Virus record (IMG/VR): IMGVR_UViG_3300006737_000020
Span: 39,224-103,223 of that record
Direction: 5' to 3' (one strand)
Length of the DNA stretch: 64,000 bases
Origin: a virus
The translations under genes were made by a program, and so were the position numbers. Positions 3,969 through 64,000 of the stretch are shown here, one piece after another (within the stretch, counting starts at the first letter, position 1; every line of letters starts with the position of its first letter). The notes beneath the pieces are model-generated. The model was not told the origin of the DNA. It searched no databases and worked only from the letters and a program-made list of their open reading frames with translations.

Positions 3969-3977
3969 ATAAATATG
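3969..3977 (-). promoter_or_regulatory. Late promoter motif
   Basis: CATATTTAT on the minus strand, directly after the stop of the polyprotein gene and 20 nt before the ATG at 3948. Confidence 0.6.
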
Positions 3978-51290: not shown

Positions 51291-51494
51291 TTAATTATTT
51301 TCGATTACCTTAATAATCTTAGAATTAGATACTGCTTTAACTTCAAAGTCAATTCCTGAACCTTCAAAGTCTTTTGTTACCATTGCTTCCGCATGGGTTA
51401 CAGAATTTGCATTTACTAAATACATTTCTGTTACTCTTTTTACTCCTTTCGATGAATCTACTGCGATTCTAACCTTAGCTGTATAATATGCCAT
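51291..51494 (-). CDS. DUF4494-like small protein
   Basis: 67 aa. YYTAKVRIAVD...VKRVTEMYLVNANSVTHAEA resembles the pattern of DUF4494 (KVRxxxxxxDGxxKxVTExYLVDAxSxTEAEA), a family found mainly in Bacteroidota and their phages; function unknown. It is preceded by a host-type promoter and an A-rich leader. The family assignment rests on remembered pattern only. Confidence 0.65.
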   Translation of the reverse strand: MAYYTAKVRIAVDSSKGVKRVTEMYLVNANSVTHAEAMVTKDFEGSGIDFEVKAVSNSKIIKVIENN

Positions 51495-51522
51495 TTCTTA
51501 ATTTTTTTTTATGATTAATAAT

Positions 51523-51575
51523 ATATAAATATAAAAACTTTTTCTCGTAAGTCCTAATACTTTTCATGAAAAGTT
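51523..51575 (-). promoter_or_regulatory. Host-type promoter before the DUF4494-like gene
   Basis: TTAG (51554-51557), 20 nt containing TTACGAG, TATATTTATAT (51523-51533) on the minus strand; an ACTTTTCATGAAAAGT palindrome overlaps the upstream block. Confidence 0.6.
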
Positions 51576-51576
51576 T

Positions 51577-52056
51577 TTAAAAGTTTCCTGGTGCTACTTG
51601 CATACATGTTAAACCTATCTCTCTCCACATCTTAACTACTTTATCTCTATCATCAAATACTGCTACTACTTCTACTTCGTCCATATCTTCAGGATTAACA
51701 AATACTTCTTCAAACCAACCTAATTTTAATTTTTCGTCAGGCATAAATTTGAATGGATGTTTAATAGGACGCATTTTTAATATATCATATTCAACTTCAT
51801 ATTCTTTTAACCAGTCTTTAGTAATTTGTTCTGATGATGCACTTCTACCTGAAAATATTGCTATTTTATATCCAAAAGCTTTTAGCGCTTGAGCCATCAT
51901 AATTACTGGTTGATTTGGTTCATCAGACGCAACAAGTTTATCTGAAAAAAATATATCCCAATCCATTTTACCAGACTTAGATGCTAATTTTCTACGTACT
52001 TCGATGTTGGCTAACGTGCCATCTAAATCGAATATTACCCATTTATCTTTACTCAT
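51577..52056 (-). CDS. HAD-family phosphatase (Pnk 3'-phosphatase-like)
   Basis: 159 aa from the ATG at 52056, one base after the preceding stop (TAATATG). Motif I FDLDGTLA (Asp10/Asp12), motif II IFSGRSAS and motif IV VFDDRDKVV are all present. The arrangement resembles the C-terminal 3'-phosphatase of T4 polynucleotide kinase, but no kinase domain is attached. Possible role in repair of RNA or DNA 3' ends. Confidence 0.8.
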   Translation of the reverse strand: MSKDKWVIFDLDGTLANIEVRRKLASKSGKMDWDIFFSDKLVASDEPNQPVIMMAQALKAFGYKIAIFSGRSASSEQITKDWLKEYEVEYDILKMRPIKHPFKFMPDEKLKLGWFEEVFVNPEDMDEVEVVAVFDDRDKVVKMWREIGLTCMQVAPGNF

Positions 52057-57759: not shown

Positions 57760-58074
57760 CTAGTCCTTGATTTCACCTCGTAAGAATTTCTTTTGTTTAG
57801 CTATAGCTTTGTCTAAGTCTGCTTTCTGAATACTATCCTTCTCAATGACTTTAGGTTCTTTATGTCCTAAGTATTTTACTATATGCCATGGCTTATTTTT
57901 CTTTTGTTTTGCATCTAAATTTTTAAACCAGGTTACTCCAGGTAGTATTGTTCCTGATTTCATTCTTAATTTATACAGTTTACTCTTCTTGTCTGTGATT
58001 TCAATAACTTCACATTCACAACTTGACCCCAAGAAGACGGCCCCTACTATATCTCCAACTTTTAAATGTTTCAT
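57760..58074 (-). CDS. Unknown protein (104 aa), barrel-like start
   Basis: The ATG at 58074 is one base after the upstream stop, with TTGGAG upstream; preferred over 58116. HLKVGDIVGAVFLGSSCECEVIEIT ... SKLYKLRMKSGTILPG looks like a small SH3-type barrel; the C-terminus is Lys-rich. No family recognised. Confidence 0.6.
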   Translation of the reverse strand: MKHLKVGDIVGAVFLGSSCECEVIEITDKKSKLYKLRMKSGTILPGVTWFKNLDAKQKKNKPWHIVKYLGHKEPKVIEKDSIQKADLDKAIAKQKKFLRGEIKD

Positions 58075-58075
58075 A

Positions 58076-58627
58076 TTACATTCTCCAATTTTTGAACGCA
58101 TGCAGAATTTCATCATCTACAGGTTCTGGTTTAACACTTTTTACTTGTGGTACAATTGTAGGATTAAACGTTTCAAATATTTCTAATGCTTGTCTACGTT
58201 GGCTTCCTGATATAATTTCTTCTTCACAAGCTTTTTCTATTTTCTTAATTGCATAATTTTTATCACAATCTAAAAAGTCCATTGCCTCTTCTAATACCTT
58301 TTCAAAATTAGCTTGACTATATTCAGGCATCTTTCTAGATACTCGAGTTTTCAATGATAAGGAAGAAGCTTTAGGACTTGGATCATTCTTACTTGCTCTA
58401 TATAACATAGAACCAAATCCTTGCCTACCTTTACTATCCAATCCTCTCAAGTATTCTTTTGTATCTTTATTTTTGATAACTTCTACTTCTGAATAAGTAG
58501 TTTTACCTGATATAATAGTTCTTACATAATTACGTTCTACAGAAGAACATTCAACACATTCACGAGTACCAGGTAAAGCTTTTATTCTTGCTTCTGGTAT
58601 TAGTTCGTTACATTTACAACAGTTCAT
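58076..58627 (-). CDS. TraR/DksA-type zinc-finger protein
   Basis: 183 aa. C3-x2-C6 with ELIPEARIKALPGT and C24-x2-C27 is the C4 finger of the TraR/DksA family, which can bind RNA polymerase through the secondary channel. The long C-terminal part (EYSQANFEKVLEEAMDFLDCD ... ILHAFKNWRM) is unrecognised. The acidic coiled-coil tip of DksA is absent, so an RNA polymerase role is only possible. It is just downstream of tRNA-Arg. Confidence 0.65.
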   Translation of the reverse strand: MNCCKCNELIPEARIKALPGTRECVECSSVERNYVRTIISGKTTYSEVEVIKNKDTKEYLRGLDSKGRQGFGSMLYRASKNDPSPKASSLSLKTRVSRKMPEYSQANFEKVLEEAMDFLDCDKNYAIKKIEKACEEEIISGSQRRQALEIFETFNPTIVPQVKSVKPEPVDDEILHAFKNWRM

Positions 58628-58641
58628 ACAATTAATTTTAG

Positions 58642-58715
58642 TGAACGCGGAAGGATTCGAACCTTCGACCGTTAGCTTAGAAGGCTAATGCTCTATCCAG
58701 CTGAGCTACGCGTCC
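58642..58715 (-). tRNA. tRNA-Arg (anticodon TCT)
   Basis: 74 nt, complete cloverleaf: acceptor GGACGCG/CGCGTTC, D stem GCTC/GAGC, anticodon stem TTAGC/GCTAA with loop CTTCTAA (anticodon TCT), T arm GAAGG-TTCGAAT-CCTTC, discriminator A. CCA is not encoded. It reads AGA, an Arg codon used heavily by the phage genes. Shares a transcript with the gene and promoter upstream. Confidence 0.95.
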
Positions 58716-58743
58716 ATATTAAGTTGTGCTATTCGCAGTTAAC

Positions 58744-58923
58744 TTACGACTTACAAAATGCTCCTATGAAGCATCCGGCAGCCATCGCACAACAACAACC
58801 AAAGAAACCCATTTCATTTAATGGATCTGCGAAGTCGATATATTCTAATATCTCTCCTGTACCTGTTATCCAGGCTAAATAAAGGCTTAAACATCCTCCT
58901 AAAAATAATAACAAATTTTTCAT
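58744..58923 (-). CDS. Small Cys-rich membrane protein (59 aa)
   Basis: ATG at 58921-58923. N-terminal span (MKNLLLFLGGCLSLYLAWI) that could be a signal, a short acidic loop, then a Cys-rich hydrophobic end (GFFGCCCAMAAGCFIGAFCKS) with six Cys. First gene after a strong host-type promoter and upstream of the tRNA. Possibly lipid-modified or disulfide-linked; no family recognised. Confidence 0.7.
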   Translation of the reverse strand: MKNLLLFLGGCLSLYLAWITGTGEILEYIDFADPLNEMGFFGCCCAMAAGCFIGAFCKS

Positions 58924-58944
58924 AATTTTTACTTTTTATTTATA

Positions 58945-58997
58945 ATATAAAGATAAGAAAAAAATCTCGTAATACCAAATCTTTTTCATGCTTTTTT
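58945..58997 (-). promoter_or_regulatory. Host-type early promoter
   Basis: AAAAAAGC (58990-58997), 10 nt, TTTG (58976-58979), 20 nt with TTACGAG, TATCTTTATAT (58945-58955) on the minus strand. Drives the 59-aa gene and the tRNA. Confidence 0.8.
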
Positions 58998-59002
58998 TTT
59001 AA

Positions 59003-59482
59003 TTATATACTATCTTTCATTAATCGATCTACTACTTTATTAACAACTTTTACATGAGGATCATTAATTAGTTCTGTACCATAATCATGTTTGGCCCAAT
59101 CAAATCCAATCATCATATATTTTGTTCTAGGTAGAAGTCTTTCAAAACTACCGTAAGAATACTCTTCATGAATAGAATAGTTCTGCATCATATCTAACTC
59201 TCTTCTAAACTCTTTATCTACATCTCCAATAGTATAACCATCACCGTAACCAGAAAAGCAAACTAGTTTTTGAAGTTTAACAATATCAAAAGAAGAACAA
59301 ATTACAGTCCAATCATCATCCATACCTATATGACCTAGGTCATTAAGTAGAGCTTCCCATTTATTAAGAATATTAGTTTTCATTTCTTTAGCAACCATAT
59401 TATTATGGTCATACATTTCTTTACTATGTGGTTTGGTAATTTCGATTCCGTAAGCGAAGGTAGGTTCTTTTTTCTTTCTCAT
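59003..59482 (-). CDS. Unknown protein (159 aa)
   Basis: The ATG at 59482 is preferred over a TTG at 59491. Mixed alpha/beta (AYGIEITKPHSKEMYDH ... LPRTKYMMIGFDWAKHDYG). No family recognised. A-rich leader with repeated AATTAAAA and no SD; strong host-type promoter upstream, so probably early. Confidence 0.6.
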   Translation of the reverse strand: MRKKKEPTFAYGIEITKPHSKEMYDHNNMVAKEMKTNILNKWEALLNDLGHIGMDDDWTVICSSFDIVKLQKLVCFSGYGDGYTIGDVDKEFRRELDMMQNYSIHEEYSYGSFERLLPRTKYMMIGFDWAKHDYGTELINDPHVKVVNKVVDRLMKDSI

Positions 59483-59520
59483 ATTATTCAATTTTTAATT
59501 TTTAATTATTAATTTATATA

Positions 59521-59573
59521 ATATAAATATAAGAAAAATATTTCAATTAAACAACCTTTTTGGCAGCTTTTTT
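59521..59573 (-). promoter_or_regulatory. Host-type early promoter
   Basis: AAAAAAGC (59566-59573), 10 nt, GTTG (59552-59555), 20 nt with ATTGA, TATATTTATAT (59521-59531) on the minus strand. Followed upstream by a TCTTAATAACTTTC block shared with other early promoters. Confidence 0.75.
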
Positions 59574-59684
59574 TGAGAAAGTTATTAAGAGCCAGATTTC
59601 AAGTTTACACTGGTATTGTAAGATTTAATAATTAATTAATATTAAATTAATATACTTGAATAAGGTTTTTGCTATTTATATTAA

Positions 59685-59759
59685 ATGAAAGAAAGAATAG
59701 ACATAACACCTGCCATATACATTGGATTAATGATAGCTATATTTTTATTAGCTATTTAA
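59685..59759 (+). CDS. Possible 24-aa membrane peptide on the plus strand
   Basis: Short ORF starting MKERIDITPA and ending in a hydrophobic span (IYIGLMIAIFLLAI). It is preceded 2 nt upstream by TATTTATATTAA, similar to the late motif, and its stop meets the stop of the minus-strand gene tail to tail. Too short to be certain. Confidence 0.35.
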   Translation: MKERIDITPAIYIGLMIAIFLLAI

Positions 59760-59992
59760 TCTTCAAACTCTTCGGTGTAATACCATTCACCGGTTTTATC
59801 ACGCAATATAGATAATATATCAGAATGATTATATTGAGTTTTACCATTTAAAAAAGAAGGAGTATTACCGTTAAATTTTACTAATGCCTTAGTACCATCA
59901 ATATTATATCTTAAAGTACTACTAGAACTTTGTTCAACTTGATTAAAATCTATTGAACTAACATCGGTGCTATTTATTATTACGTATATCAT
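59756..59992 (-). CDS. Small unknown protein (78 aa)
   Basis: MIYVIINSTDVSSIDFNQV ... STLRYNIDGTKALVKFNG ... YYTEEFED. A beta-rich small protein, coupled (TAATG overlap) to the LamG gene upstream; related short proteins occur in other marine phages. Function unknown. Confidence 0.65.
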   Translation of the reverse strand: MIYVIINSTDVSSIDFNQVEQSSSSTLRYNIDGTKALVKFNGNTPSFLNGKTQYNHSDILSILRDKTGEWYYTEEFED

Positions 59993-61476
59993 TATTCTTT
60001 ACTATATTCATCTAACGGACTTACTTTTTCAAATGATGCTCCATTTACTAATGCACCAGCTGTCCTGGTAATTTTATCAGTGGTACGAGTACTTTCTCCT
60101 TCTGATAACGGCCAATATGCAAGTAGTTCTGCACTTCCTGTTGATACATATCCTCCAGATCCTGAAATAATATCTGGTGGAAATCCATCATTAAACAATC
60201 CTTTGATATTAGATTCATCTAATGCTTTATACCATACTCCTACATTGTTTATTTGGCCATTGAAATAAGAATCTGCAGCTGTATTTGCTTTACCAAACTT
60301 ACCTATATAACTTTCTGTACCAGTATATGTTAAAGCACAATCCTCATCTCCACTAGCAATAGTTGTTACCGATTTTCCATTCATATATATTTTCCAATCT
60401 GCTCGACGATTAGATCCAAATACAAATGTACACATCAACCATTTATTTTCATACATTCTTTTAGGATCTACTGTATTAGATTGAACTACCGTTTTTCTAT
60501 GACTTGATGTTTGGCCGTATGATCCATTTCTTGCTCTACCATACATGTCCATTGCCAATCTAAAATCGGCTGATACTCTAGTAGCAATACCATAATACTT
60601 ATTATGAGTTCTTCCTATTGATAATATAGGATGTGCTGCAGAACCTGAATTTTCTATCTTTAGCCATGCATTAATAGTTAATCCATATCTTGCAATTTCT
60701 TCTTCTGTTTTATATAAGGTTCTAGAATGGTCTCCTAATGCAATATAATCATTAGTTCCATCAAATGCAACACTATAATCATTTGAATAATAACTTGCAG
60801 TTGTTTGTAAATCTAATGATTTCTTAAACATGTAATTTTGTACTTTTTTGTCTGGTAAAGCTTTAGATGCAGTTAGTACAGTTAATTTTTCAACATCTTC
60901 TAGATCTCTATACCATTGTCTCTTATAAGCACCAAACCATCTTTCTTGTGGAACATCTAATTCATCAGTAAATGATTCTGATATTATCCTAATAGGATTA
61001 CCTTTTCTATCCATACCTACTTTTAGGCCTTGGATGGTATCATCTTCTTTTTCTCTAAAGTTTTGTTTATACTTGGTCTTGAATTCTTCATACCTAGGTG
61101 ATTTACTAAATGAAGCTGTAGCTGCATCGTTTACAACTCTATAACAAAATTCAGTAGTAGCTCCATTTGATGAACTACACATTCTTTCAGATCTTAATCC
61201 ATACTTTAAACTTTCAGTAACTTCTCCTGCTTCCCAATCCAACATACCAGCTTCATATCGTTCTTTCTGGACTTCCTTAATACGTTCTTTTTTCTTCTTT
61301 AAAGTTTGGTCTGCATTTGATGCATCCTTTATTACAACAGTTCTATCGTCTTTAAAATGCTTATGTGTAATTTCAGATATATGTACTTCACCAACTAATG
61401 GTTCTCCACAACATTCACACATTTCTTCGATTATTTGCTGCTTGTTCGATCCTGACATTACTAGACGTAGTACCAT
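59992..61476 (-). CDS. Structural protein with Cys motif and LamG-like domain
   Basis: 494 aa. The N-terminus has CECCGEP (a metal-binding-like cluster) and a basic helix (LKKKKERIKEVQKERYEAG). Residues ~230-420 are LamG-like (AFDGTNDYIALGDHSRTLY ... LTINAWLKI ... FNGQINNVGVWYKALDESN). SD AAAGGTAA. Fourth protein in the window with this fold; probably virion-exposed. Confidence 0.7.
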   Translation of the reverse strand: MVLRLVMSGSNKQQIIEEMCECCGEPLVGEVHISEITHKHFKDDRTVVIKDASNADQTLKKKKERIKEVQKERYEAGMLDWEAGEVTESLKYGLRSERMCSSSNGATTEFCYRVVNDAATASFSKSPRYEEFKTKYKQNFREKEDDTIQGLKVGMDRKGNPIRIISESFTDELDVPQERWFGAYKRQWYRDLEDVEKLTVLTASKALPDKKVQNYMFKKSLDLQTTASYYSNDYSVAFDGTNDYIALGDHSRTLYKTEEEIARYGLTINAWLKIENSGSAAHPILSIGRTHNKYYGIATRVSADFRLAMDMYGRARNGSYGQTSSHRKTVVQSNTVDPKRMYENKWLMCTFVFGSNRRADWKIYMNGKSVTTIASGDEDCALTYTGTESYIGKFGKANTAADSYFNGQINNVGVWYKALDESNIKGLFNDGFPPDIISGSGGYVSTGSAELLAYWPLSEGESTRTTDKITRTAGALVNGASFEKVSPLDEYSKE

Positions 61477-61492
61477 AACTTATTACCTTTAA

Positions 61493-62041
61493 TTAAATAG
61501 CTGCAAATGCCTTTTGAAGGAAAGAACCTATTTCTTTAGTTTTAACGGCATTTAATGCACCTTTAAGAGTTGCCATCCCAGTACTACCTTTTGCAAATTT
61601 ATCAGCCATACCACCTACACCTTTATATAATAATACAGCAACTGTTAATGCATGTAATATTTCAGCTACCTTTTTTCTTGCAACTGCATCTTTCATTCCT
61701 GCCTTTTCTAATGGCCATTCAAAAGCTTTTATAATCCTCTTATGATTATTTTTACCCCATTGAATAAGTTTATCTCCAGACAATCGTTTTAGGCCTGGTA
61801 TTTTACTTATAAGGTTCATAAACTTTCCTAGTAGTTTTTGTATCTCACCAAATGATAAAGCAAAACCAGCCGCTGTTAAAACAATACCTTCTGTTTCAGG
61901 AGCATCTAGATCTGCTTGTTTGATATCCTTTTCAAAATCATCAAACATGTCATCTAATACTTCTTCTGATGCATCTGTTGTATTACCAAATACATCAGCT
62001 TCGGAAATTACCTCATTTAATAAGTCTTTTAATTTTACCAT
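61493..62041 (-). CDS. Leader-bearing virion protein with hydrophobic segments
   Basis: 182 aa. Leader KLKDLLNEVISEA with possible cut ISE|A. After an acidic stretch come hydrophobic amphipathic helices (IQKLLGKFMNLISKIPGLKRL; ILHALTVAVLLYKGVGGMADK). Proteins like this could be ejected and insert into membrane, but no function is established. Confidence 0.65.
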   Translation of the reverse strand: MVKLKDLLNEVISEADVFGNTTDASEEVLDDMFDDFEKDIKQADLDAPETEGIVLTAAGFALSFGEIQKLLGKFMNLISKIPGLKRLSGDKLIQWGKNNHKRIIKAFEWPLEKAGMKDAVARKKVAEILHALTVAVLLYKGVGGMADKFAKGSTGMATLKGALNAVKTKEIGSFLQKAFAAI

Positions 62042-62475
62042 TTCCTACAGCTCCAATATCTTGCTTTAGTTCTTGGTCCTGGAGAATCACAATTATGTCT
62101 TGCTCTAAATGACTTTCTTGCTTTAGGATTATTCTTTCTTATACGCATAGTCTTTTCACCACCTTTACCTTTATGACCAAAATTCACTTTTTTAACATTA
62201 CCTGTTTTTGGATCTTTAACATATACCTTAAACTTTTTAACATCGCCTTGCATAGGTTTACCAAGTTTAACTTTACGACCTTGATATTCTGCTTCTTGAT
62301 ATAATATAGGTTCTGAAGATTCTACTATCTCCATACGTAATGATTCATTTCTATATATTACAGAATCATTAACTTTAACGCATTTGTCTTTGCCATCCTC
62401 CGTACCAGCATATCGGTATCCTTTCCAACATGCCTTTCCATCAGCGCCTTTTACTTTTTCAATAATGTATTTCAT
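62035..62475 (-). CDS. Virion-associated protein with SFRARHNC...YWSCRKW end
   Basis: 146 aa. The N-terminus CWKGYRYAGTEDGKDKCVKV is followed by ILYQEAEYQGRKVKLGKPM, containing a further possible prohead-protease site (YQE|A). Then a basic C-terminus with KARKSFRARHNCDSPGP and ARYWSCRKW. That C-terminal motif recurs in T4-like marine phages, without known function. Good SD TTGGAGAA. Confidence 0.7.
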   Translation of the reverse strand: MKYIIEKVKGADGKACWKGYRYAGTEDGKDKCVKVNDSVIYRNESLRMEIVESSEPILYQEAEYQGRKVKLGKPMQGDVKKFKVYVKDPKTGNVKKVNFGHKGKGGEKTMRIRKNNPKARKSFRARHNCDSPGPRTKARYWSCRKW

Positions 62476-62494
62476 AGGTGTTCTCCAATTTAAT

Positions 62495-62503
62495 ATAAAT
62501 ATG
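62495..62503 (-). promoter_or_regulatory. Late promoter motif at the head of the minus-strand array
   Basis: CATATTTAT then ATTAAA on the minus strand, 19 nt before the ATG at 62475. No gene lies upstream on this strand, which argues for a promoter rather than a terminator. Confidence 0.65.
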
Positions 62504-62504
62504 C

Positions 62505-62564
62505 GGTTGGTCCGGTTAAGTGTGGTTTCCGGTTAGGTAAAGTGAGGTGGTTATAGTGAGGTTA
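62505..62564 (+). repeat. G-rich GGTTA cluster in the divergent region
   Basis: GGTTG/GGTTA/GGTAA units at 62505, 62514, 62524 (GGTTT), 62531, 62536, 62549 and 62560 on the plus strand, including GTGAGGTGGTTATAGTGAGGTTA split across positions 62542-62564. Possible operator between the two divergent promoters. Confidence 0.5.
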
Positions 62565-62573
62565 AAAAGATGT

Positions 62574-62626
62574 AAAAAAGCAGCCAAAAGATTTGGTAGA
62601 TTGAAAAATATTCCTTATCTTTATAT
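62574..62626 (+). promoter_or_regulatory. Host-type early promoter for the plus-strand gene
   Basis: AAAAAAGC (62574-62581), 10 nt, TTTG (62592-62595), 20 nt with ATTGA, TATCTTTATAT (62616-62626). The only plus-strand copy with all blocks, facing the SWIM gene. Confidence 0.8.
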
Positions 62627-62645
62627 TATATAAAAAGATGAAAAT

Positions 62646-63032
62646 ATGGCCAAAGTACTAGTTAATGAATTCTTCGTGCATGGCATGAAGAAACCCAAAA
62701 GAACCTATGCAATTCATGGAGGTTTAATTCCACCATTTACAATGACCTACGGAAGCGCAAAGTATATAATGCCCGGATGGTATAAGATAGATGATACAGA
62801 AGAACTTCCCGATATAGAAGATATTGCATTTTATCCTTATAAGCCTAAAAAAGACAATAGCCTAGATAATATAAAGAGCAATGCTATATATAAGGTAATG
62901 TCTAGTAAAGGTGATAAGGAATACCAAGTCCAAATGAATACCTCTGGTAGCCTGGAATGCGAATGCCCTGGATATGGGTTTAGGAGAAGGTGCCGACATA
63001 TAGACCAGGTAGTAGCCGAATCCCTTATATAG
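62646..63032 (+). CDS. SWIM-type zinc-finger protein
   Basis: 128 aa. C105-x-C107-x8-C116-x-H118 (CECPGYGFRRRCRH) is the SWIM finger, a DNA-, RNA- or protein-binding module. The N-terminal ~90 residues (GMKKPKRTYAIHGGLIPPF ... IMPGWYKIDD) are unrecognised. It is the only clear plus-strand gene, has its own early-type promoter and lies beside G-rich repeat arrays; a regulatory or replication role is plausible. Confidence 0.75.
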   Translation: MAKVLVNEFFVHGMKKPKRTYAIHGGLIPPFTMTYGSAKYIMPGWYKIDDTEELPDIEDIAFYPYKPKKDNSLDNIKSNAIYKVMSSKGDKEYQVQMNTSGSLECECPGYGFRRRCRHIDQVVAESLI

Positions 63033-63201
63033 AAAAATTTTATTTTGCACTTTTCGCTTGCGCTCAGATTCTTGAGATGGTTGGGCTTTATAGGTATACA
63101 GCGCCTTGTGCTTGTATACGCAGTATATATTAGTATAATAGTTCTATATATAAAAATATTAAGTTCACTAGATAAAAACATATAACGACCCCCCAGAGCA
63201 T

Positions 63202-63354
63202 GGTATATACCTGGTATGTTACCGAAAACCCCTATATCCCCACCTTTTGAGGGGTATTATGGAGGTATTACGGGGTAGCTGAAGGTATGTGCCCTGCTTT
63301 AGGTTATATAGGGGTTATATGGACGGTATTAGCTGGTATGTGGATATATGGTGG
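63202..63354 (+). repeat. Phased GGTAT/GGTTA array
   Basis: GGTAT-type pentamers start at 63202, 63213, 63253, 63264, 63274 (GGTAG), 63284, 63302, 63313, 63325, 63335 and 63350 (GGTGG). Many neighbours are 10-12 nt apart, about one helical turn. Confidence 0.6.
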
Positions 63355-63365
63355 ATTATACCATT

Positions 63366-63458
63366 CTAATCGGTCTTGCGCTGTATATATTGAATTGCGT
63401 TCTTATATAGTATATTGTACATATTATATTTAGTTTGCGTTATAGCATTCGCTAGCAT
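63366..63458 (-). CDS. Doubtful 30-aa ORF downstream of a promoter
   Basis: ATG at 63456-63458 after an AAGAAGAAG stretch; peptide MLANAITQTKYNMYNILYKN and 10 more residues. It lies about 65 nt downstream of the promoter at 63524-63558. The transcript may equally be non-coding. Confidence 0.2.
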   Translation of the reverse strand: MLANAITQTKYNMYNILYKNAIQYIQRKTD

Positions 63459-63523
63459 CTGCTTCTTCTTGCTTCCGTTCAGATCGCAGCAACCTGGATA
63501 TATTTTTTTTATATATAGTCTAT

Positions 63524-63558
63524 ATTATAATATAAGGATAATAAGTCGTAAGTCCTAG
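63524..63558 (-). promoter_or_regulatory. Host-type promoter without a clear gene
   Basis: CTAG (63555-63558), 20 nt with TTACGA, TATATTATAAT (63524-63534) on the minus strand. The transcript would run through 63517-63040. Confidence 0.5.
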
Positions 63559-64000
63559 TAAATCCAAAGAAAGTTATTAAAAGTTATTAAGAACAACGAC
63601 CTTGTGGTGTATAACTTAACCCATGCATGCACAAGGATAAGTATACTTGACTGTATAACTACTTGATAATAAATAGATTATATAGGTTGTAAGGTATTCT
63701 TCCTACCAGAGTGATAAACCCTTAACCCCGTTTACCTCAATCGTTGGTTTAGGTGGATACCAATCTTGGCTGAAAGACGTTCCTGAAATCGGAAAAAAGC
63801 TATAAAAAAATTTGGAATCTCGGAAGAAAGACGTATACCACTCTACACATTTGTCCTATACAATGCTCTGAGCTTGCTATAGCAATATTATCTATTCGTA
63901 AATATTTTTAAATTTTTTAATTGATTGGTATAGAGAACATTTAAAGAACTAACTAATATGATAAAAGGTAAGGCCAATTCAACTATTAGATAGGTTTATA

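Follow-up and report, generated by a model that had tools for sequence, protein, structure and literature searches.

Computational analysis of the right-hand end of the window (the whole 64,000-nucleotide stretch analysed, positions 39224-103223 of a 103,223-base IMG/VR phage record) reveals a very probable leftward promoter at 63558 with no evident gene behind it, a helically phased array of GGTAT sites downstream, and no sign of RNA structure in the stretch that the transcript would cross. These features fit a control site in the DNA, which may be a replication origin, better than a structured non-coding RNA.

The phage terminase is of T4 type by Pfam, with matches in 'Microcystis' phage Mel-JY01 (57.7%) and in Flavobacterium phages immuto (about 57%); the host of this T4-like phage is probably a member of the Bacteroidota. 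Nearly all genes in the window run leftward, the sole evident rightward one being a SWIM-like gene, and the DNA from 63033 to 64000, which reaches the contig end, is without evident gene. The contig ends 442 nt to the right of the promoter at 63558, and early genes are absent from it; GC skew tracks gene direction and gives no clear sign of an origin. Another phage record, G059, is almost identical to the window (99.97% across the 20 kb that were compared, window 58056-38057) and stops short of the locus. A relative at about 72-84% DNA identity to the window is represented, among others, by L310 (CALBOT010000065.1), from a marine MAG that bears the name Candidatus Nitrosopelagicus. Both L310 and the contigs G060:C27, C29 and C155 carry T4-like phage genes and the same promoters as this phage, and the MAG contigs with these genes look like wrongly binned phage contigs. 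The only tRNA found in the window by ARAGORN is a tRNA-Arg (TCT) at 58641-58715.

Fifteen clear promoters of a two-box class are present in the contig. The upstream box is TTTG in eight, TTAG in four, CTTG in two and GTTG in one, and TTGA or TTACGA usually comes soon after it; the downstream box, which follows after 20 nt, is of the type TATnTTnn in the 15 promoters (in one, TATAATTA). The sections of PMC6847099 and PMC9723704 on Bacteroidota sigma-A promoters give the consensus TTTG / TAnnTTTG, with which the phage promoters share two boxes at matching distance, compatible with the host type. However, the final G of that -7 box is missing from the 63558 site, whose box TATATTAT departs from the TAnnTTTG consensus given there, and likewise from 14 of the remaining 15 promoters. 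The phage promoters also contain blocks additional to the Bacteroidota pattern, namely TTGA/TTACGA and either AAAAAAGC or a pair of AACTTT copies, and two sub-classes are described accordingly, one with AAAAAAGC, the other with the AACTTT pair and TTAGGACTTACGA. All 15 are followed by an open reading frame of at least 59 aa starting 3-163 nt past the second box, no more than 58 nt past it in 13 cases; one start codon is TTG. In six contig pieces of the relative, all 12 matrix matches scoring above 12 precede an ORF of at least 40 aa starting within 121 nt, the 12 including the homologue of a promoter (at 51557, see below) that was in the training set of that matrix. Since every other clear match, in this phage and in the scanned pieces of its relative, sits directly before a reading frame, the two sub-classes can serve directly to predict where genes start in phages of this kind, even if the locus at 63558 is no origin. 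Two tandem TTAGGA-class promoters, 125 bp apart, were also observed before one 260-aa gene at positions 3974 and 3849 of G000 (L005).

At 63558-63527 on the minus strand, the upstream box CTAG (63558-63555, within CTAGGACTTACGA) is followed by 20 nt beginning GACTTACGA and by the downstream box TATATTAT (63534-63527). By analogy with F. johnsoniae, for which PMC6847099 describes starts 4-5 nt past the box, the RNA would be expected to begin near 63522. A 42-nt core matrix with the 20-nt gap built in, trained on 14 promoters with both this site and the promoter at 51557 held out, assigns the site a score of 10.9, which places it 16th among the roughly 206,000 positions of the 103-kb contig; the 15 clear promoters score 25-43 and the next background position 7.9. 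Dinucleotide shuffles of 63033-64000 reached 10.9 in 4 of 1000 cases, and in 0 of 1000 when the 51557 promoter was included in the training set. Thus the box pair with an exact 20-nt spacer, pointing left, that had been noticed in a first-pass annotation is present and stands above chance. By the matrix alone the site is a weak member of the class: when the matrix is widened to 58 nt so as to take in the AAAAAAGC element, missing at this site, the score is only 1.6 (rank 20). It has the core blocks at the fixed 20-nt spacing; its CTAG is one letter off the TTTG/CTTG/GTTG/TTAG set and is carried by none of the 15 members, and in spite of this box the site is counted as a sub-class variant because of its resemblance to the promoter at 51557.

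This twin promoter (AACTTTTAAAAACTTT, TTAGGACTTACGA and TATATTTA; 51291-51585, minus strand, together with the 67-aa gene that it precedes) scores 27.8 when held out from the core matrix. The two sites have in common AACTTTTnAnAACTTT, TAGGACTTACGA, the 20-nt gap and TATATT, and neither AACTTTTnAnAACTTT nor TAGGACTTACGA is found anywhere else in the contig. AACTTTTnAnAACTTT occurs twice in the 103 kb, at the 63558 site and at 51585, where 0.0096 occurrences are expected, and both copies are followed, 27-28 nt downstream, by a TAGGACTTACGA box; similarly, AGGACTTACGA is found only at 51555 and 63556, even when one mismatch is allowed (0.011 expected for the exact word). In L310 the twin module is identical at 68 of 70 positions, compared with 351 of 484 for the gene upstream and 184 of 204 for the 67-aa gene itself; therefore, the blocks common to the twin and the 63558 site are kept by selection. 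L310, like L283, was found with promoter patterns; among 19 matches of one such pattern, only that in L283 was a full promoter, the other 18 being judged chance or coding. Upstream of the 63558 promoter, at 63570-63585 on the minus strand, two AACTTT copies lie 10 bp apart (AACTTTTAATAACTTT); spaced by one helical turn, they may form a binding site for an activator. The start of the leftward transcript falls within an AT-rich stretch (63497-63546), one of the 50-bp segments of the window that melt most readily and third when these are listed without overlap; similar AT-rich DNA is common around the other promoters of the phage, so that this feature is weak evidence. Overall, the 63558 site is very probably a genuine promoter of the two-box class, sub-class TTAGGA with the AACTTT pair upstream, and RNA is likely to start there.

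The stretch that a leftward transcript would cross (63033-63522, minus strand) lacks coding, structure and terminator signals. Its 30-aa ORF (63366-63458, minus strand), beginning at +68 and already regarded as doubtful in the first-pass annotation, has a codon score of -0.30 per codon, which is close to the mean of its own shuffles (-0.28) and below all 363 real 30-codon windows (lowest -0.248); it was judged to be no gene, in keeping with the earlier view of this stretch as having no evident gene. A 114-aa ORF antisense to the SWIM-like gene, at +345, also scores at the level of its own shuffles. Codon score alone would not exclude a foreign small gene, because the SWIM-like gene barely exceeds its own shuffles (-0.12 against -0.37). 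A gene directly downstream, present behind 15 of 15 promoters of this phage and 12 of 12 of its relative, is thus missing at 63558, and the initial description of a promoter without evident gene is strengthened by these comparisons and by the twin.

No structured RNA could be recognised in the same stretch. An Rfam 15 covariance-model search gave no family match, only two chance matches (E 0.94 and 4.6), and there was no folding excess in 63040-63520, with z of -1.2 on the minus strand and -0.6 on the plus strand. In a scan of both strands with 120- and 240-nt windows (92 window tests), no minus-strand window fell below z -1.51; the only one of note, 63560-63679 on the plus strand (z -2.8), lies outside the stretch and is unremarkable among 92 tests. 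The transcript had been proposed to end near a strong GTATAC-type hairpin. The two GTATAC palindromes concerned, around a 12-14 nt centre at 63093-63119, the first of them within a further GGTAT copy, were rejected as a strong hairpin: 60 of 200 shuffles fold as well or better on the minus strand (z -0.47), no U-run follows, and a terminator scan found no terminator-like site in 62400-64000. Structured non-coding RNA was consequently rejected on Rfam, folding of both strands and terminator scan, and the earlier interpretation as a non-coding or antisense RNA survives only in part: a promoter without a gene is there, while Rfam, folding, terminators and homology in the records searched offer nothing in favour of a structured RNA.

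An exceptional feature of the stretch is the array of seven GGTAT copies (63202-63339, plus strand) at 63202, 63213, 63253, 63264, 63284, 63325 and 63335, that is with spacings of 11, 40, 11, 20, 41 and 10. The transcript was predicted to cross this array, and indeed all seven copies would appear as ATACC (AUACC) in the leftward RNA. The copies are in helical phase (R 0.98 at 10.2 bp), a phase matched by 0 of 5000 random placements even with the period free between 10 and 11; the ten GGTW copies in 63202-63338 give R 0.87, again with 0 of 5000. The phase was noticed before it was tested, the controls being a survey of all 5-mers and a comparison of flanks. When all 5-mers with at least two G/C were surveyed across 57 pieces (1.18 Mb) from this phage and its relatives, this phased array came out strongest; the next-best are mostly multiples of 3 and are read as coding repeats. 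The number of copies is uninformative in itself, some 5-mer reaching eight copies in 66% of shuffles, and an eighth GGTAT at 63093 is outside the cluster and out of phase. A decayed tandem repeat was rejected as the source of the phase: the seven cores are identical, in part by choice since copies were picked by their core, and their flanks are as unlike as chance (0.26 vs 0.26, p 0.5). Intrinsic bending was also dismissed, the array being unexceptional at the 95th percentile at 100 bp and the 73rd at 150 bp. With copies on one helical face and random flanks, the array has the character of a group of sites in the DNA, an argument in favour of a DNA element. Minisatellites of 11 bp that contain GGTAT occur in two unrelated phage contigs (L246 211-261, L270 3650-3770).

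We tentatively favour a reading in which the leftward non-coding transcript serves an iteron-type DNA locus, perhaps a replication origin or a similar nucleoprotein control site. The 63558 promoter would start a leftward untranslated RNA across a lineage-specific non-coding control locus of about 1 kb; a phage DNA-binding protein would fill the phased GGTAT sites, all facing one side of the helix, and transcription that begins at the orphan promoter would help to open or prime the DNA, the RNA itself being no structured regulator. Firing of the promoter, binding of a protein to the array, joint action of the two and a function in replication are what we infer from these features.

Precedents exist for the single elements. 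Sites on one helix face are typical of multi-site operators, and at lambda ori transcription helps to open or prime the DNA. The GGTAT array, a repeated core in helical phase, resembles lambda ori and the iteron arrays of plasmid origins in its short phased sites, AT-rich DNA and nearby promoter; conversely, its core is only 5 bp, its gaps amount to one, two and four turns, and no initiator gene is known. Plasmid iterons are described in helical phase, and their phasing as important, in the part of PMC5043065 that deals with them. According to the account of T4 origins in PMC3016281, both oriF and oriG depend on a promoter with AT-rich unwinding DNA behind it, and the oriF transcript forms an R-loop, very likely the replication primer. 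The present locus is like oriF (ori(uvsY)) and oriG (ori(34)) in belonging to a T4-type phage; a promoter whose transcript would matter for the DNA, with AT-rich DNA behind it, may be a further likeness, the AT-rich start being nothing special among the promoters of this phage. It differs in that no MotA-type box is shown here, T4 minimal origins include no phased GGTAT array, and the distance from the RNA start to the array, about 180-320 nt, exceeds the roughly 100 bp of those origins; an R-loop, known at oriF/oriG, would be conjecture for this locus. A limited literature search found no origin or promoter map for Immutovirus-like phages. A bolder proposal must be considered doubtful: T4-like phages of Bacteroidota would have a novel type of origin or control locus, in which a dedicated non-coding transcript runs through a phased array of bare 5-bp GGTAT sites, a phage activator acts on the AACTTT/TTAGGACTTACGA promoter and the RNA fires replication. 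If the locus is an origin, it would offer a compact site open to testing, where a promoter yields nothing but an RNA for the DNA itself.

The lack of a known initiator, with the genes beyond the contig end missing from the record, counts against an origin, as does the distribution of the locus. No relatives of the SWIM-like protein were found in IMG/VR, and against 60 records it gave only short or weak matches, in four of them; none were found for the genes at 61493-62041 and 59992-61476. The DNA of 63033-64000, compared with 13 and 47 records (including 47 of 80 terminase loci and 11 of another 80 loci), gave only short chance or promoter matches and no homologous locus. The array pattern was found at 38 loci in viral contigs, none of them related, and nowhere in genome contigs; five of the longest ORF-free gaps in relatives contain collagen-like genes or tRNA-rich DNA instead of this locus. 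Upstream of the homologue of the 62035-62475 gene there is a same-direction reading frame in G060 and same-direction genes in L009. Both relatives examined thus differ there, and the locus is regarded as lineage-specific, which one would hardly expect of an essential origin, although T4 origins have little sequence in common. An essential role becomes less convincing, and readings of the promoter as a relic and of the RNA as antisense keep some weight.

Cis-antisense control, in which the leftward RNA would lower expression of the SWIM-like gene by pairing with its mRNA or by collision of polymerases, is somewhat unlikely. The gene (62646-63032, plus strand) encodes a 128-aa protein with a CxCx8CxH motif, which reaches 12.5 bits with Pfam SWIM, under the cut-off of 19.6, and is preceded by the best-scoring promoter of the contig (TTTG-N20-TATCTTTA, 62592-62623, plus strand). 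It is indeed convergent with the leftward transcript, as initially proposed, with no terminator-like site between promoter and gene, and flavobacteria frequently make RNAs antisense to their coding genes, according to the transcript survey in PMC9723704. However, the stop of the SWIM-like gene is 490 nt from the RNA start, the phased array would be left unexplained, and the RNA shows neither structure nor conservation. The independent and antisense RNAs of flavobacteria (Rfp RNAs) are observed transcripts, which the RNA predicted here would resemble in being non-coding and partly antisense.

It is unlikely that the promoter is a relic, left without present function when its small gene was lost in a rearrangement of the junction. 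The lack of synteny in the two relatives, the CTAG box found in none of the 15 others and the codon use of the SWIM-like gene, atypical for this phage and perhaps a mark of recent acquisition, would fit a recent change at the locus; nevertheless, all promoter blocks are intact, including the two rare ones, and the phased array with random flanks suggests a kept function nearby.

More remote is the idea that the RNA forms the 5' leader of a message encoding the leftward gene at 62475 together with the structural genes that follow: the direction is the same and a scan of the minus strand in 58000-63558 gave no terminator-like site, but a leader of about 1040 nt, antisense to a whole gene, would contrast with the 3-163 nt that separate the other promoters from their genes, and immediately before the 62475 gene stands a late-type box of its own, CATATTTATATTAAA. 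A short trans-acting or structured non-coding RNA, as first suggested, is just as improbable given the ordinary hairpin and the Rfam, folding and terminator results above, despite a promoter without gene and the report on F. psychrophilum in PMC9723704 of independent short RNAs that are often unstructured, with strong structure in 18 of 45.

Other repeated or promoter-like elements were observed on both sides of the 63558 promoter. To the right, an imperfect 19-nt repeat (AATCTTGGCTGAAAGACGT, 84%) occurs at 63762-63780 and 63816-63834, 54 bp apart, the second copy adjoining a TTTGG box without clear second box. To the left, a second promoter-like box, CATATTTATnnTAAA, present at 62475-62500 and upstream of many leftward structural genes, is probably this phage's late promoter. 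The densest GGT block of the window (62505-62562, plus strand), with repeated GGTTA/AGTGAGGT pieces, separates the late-type promoter before the 62035-62475 gene from the divergent SWIM promoter; helical phase was rejected for it, 1209 of 5000 random placements being as phased, and the block is a possible operator.
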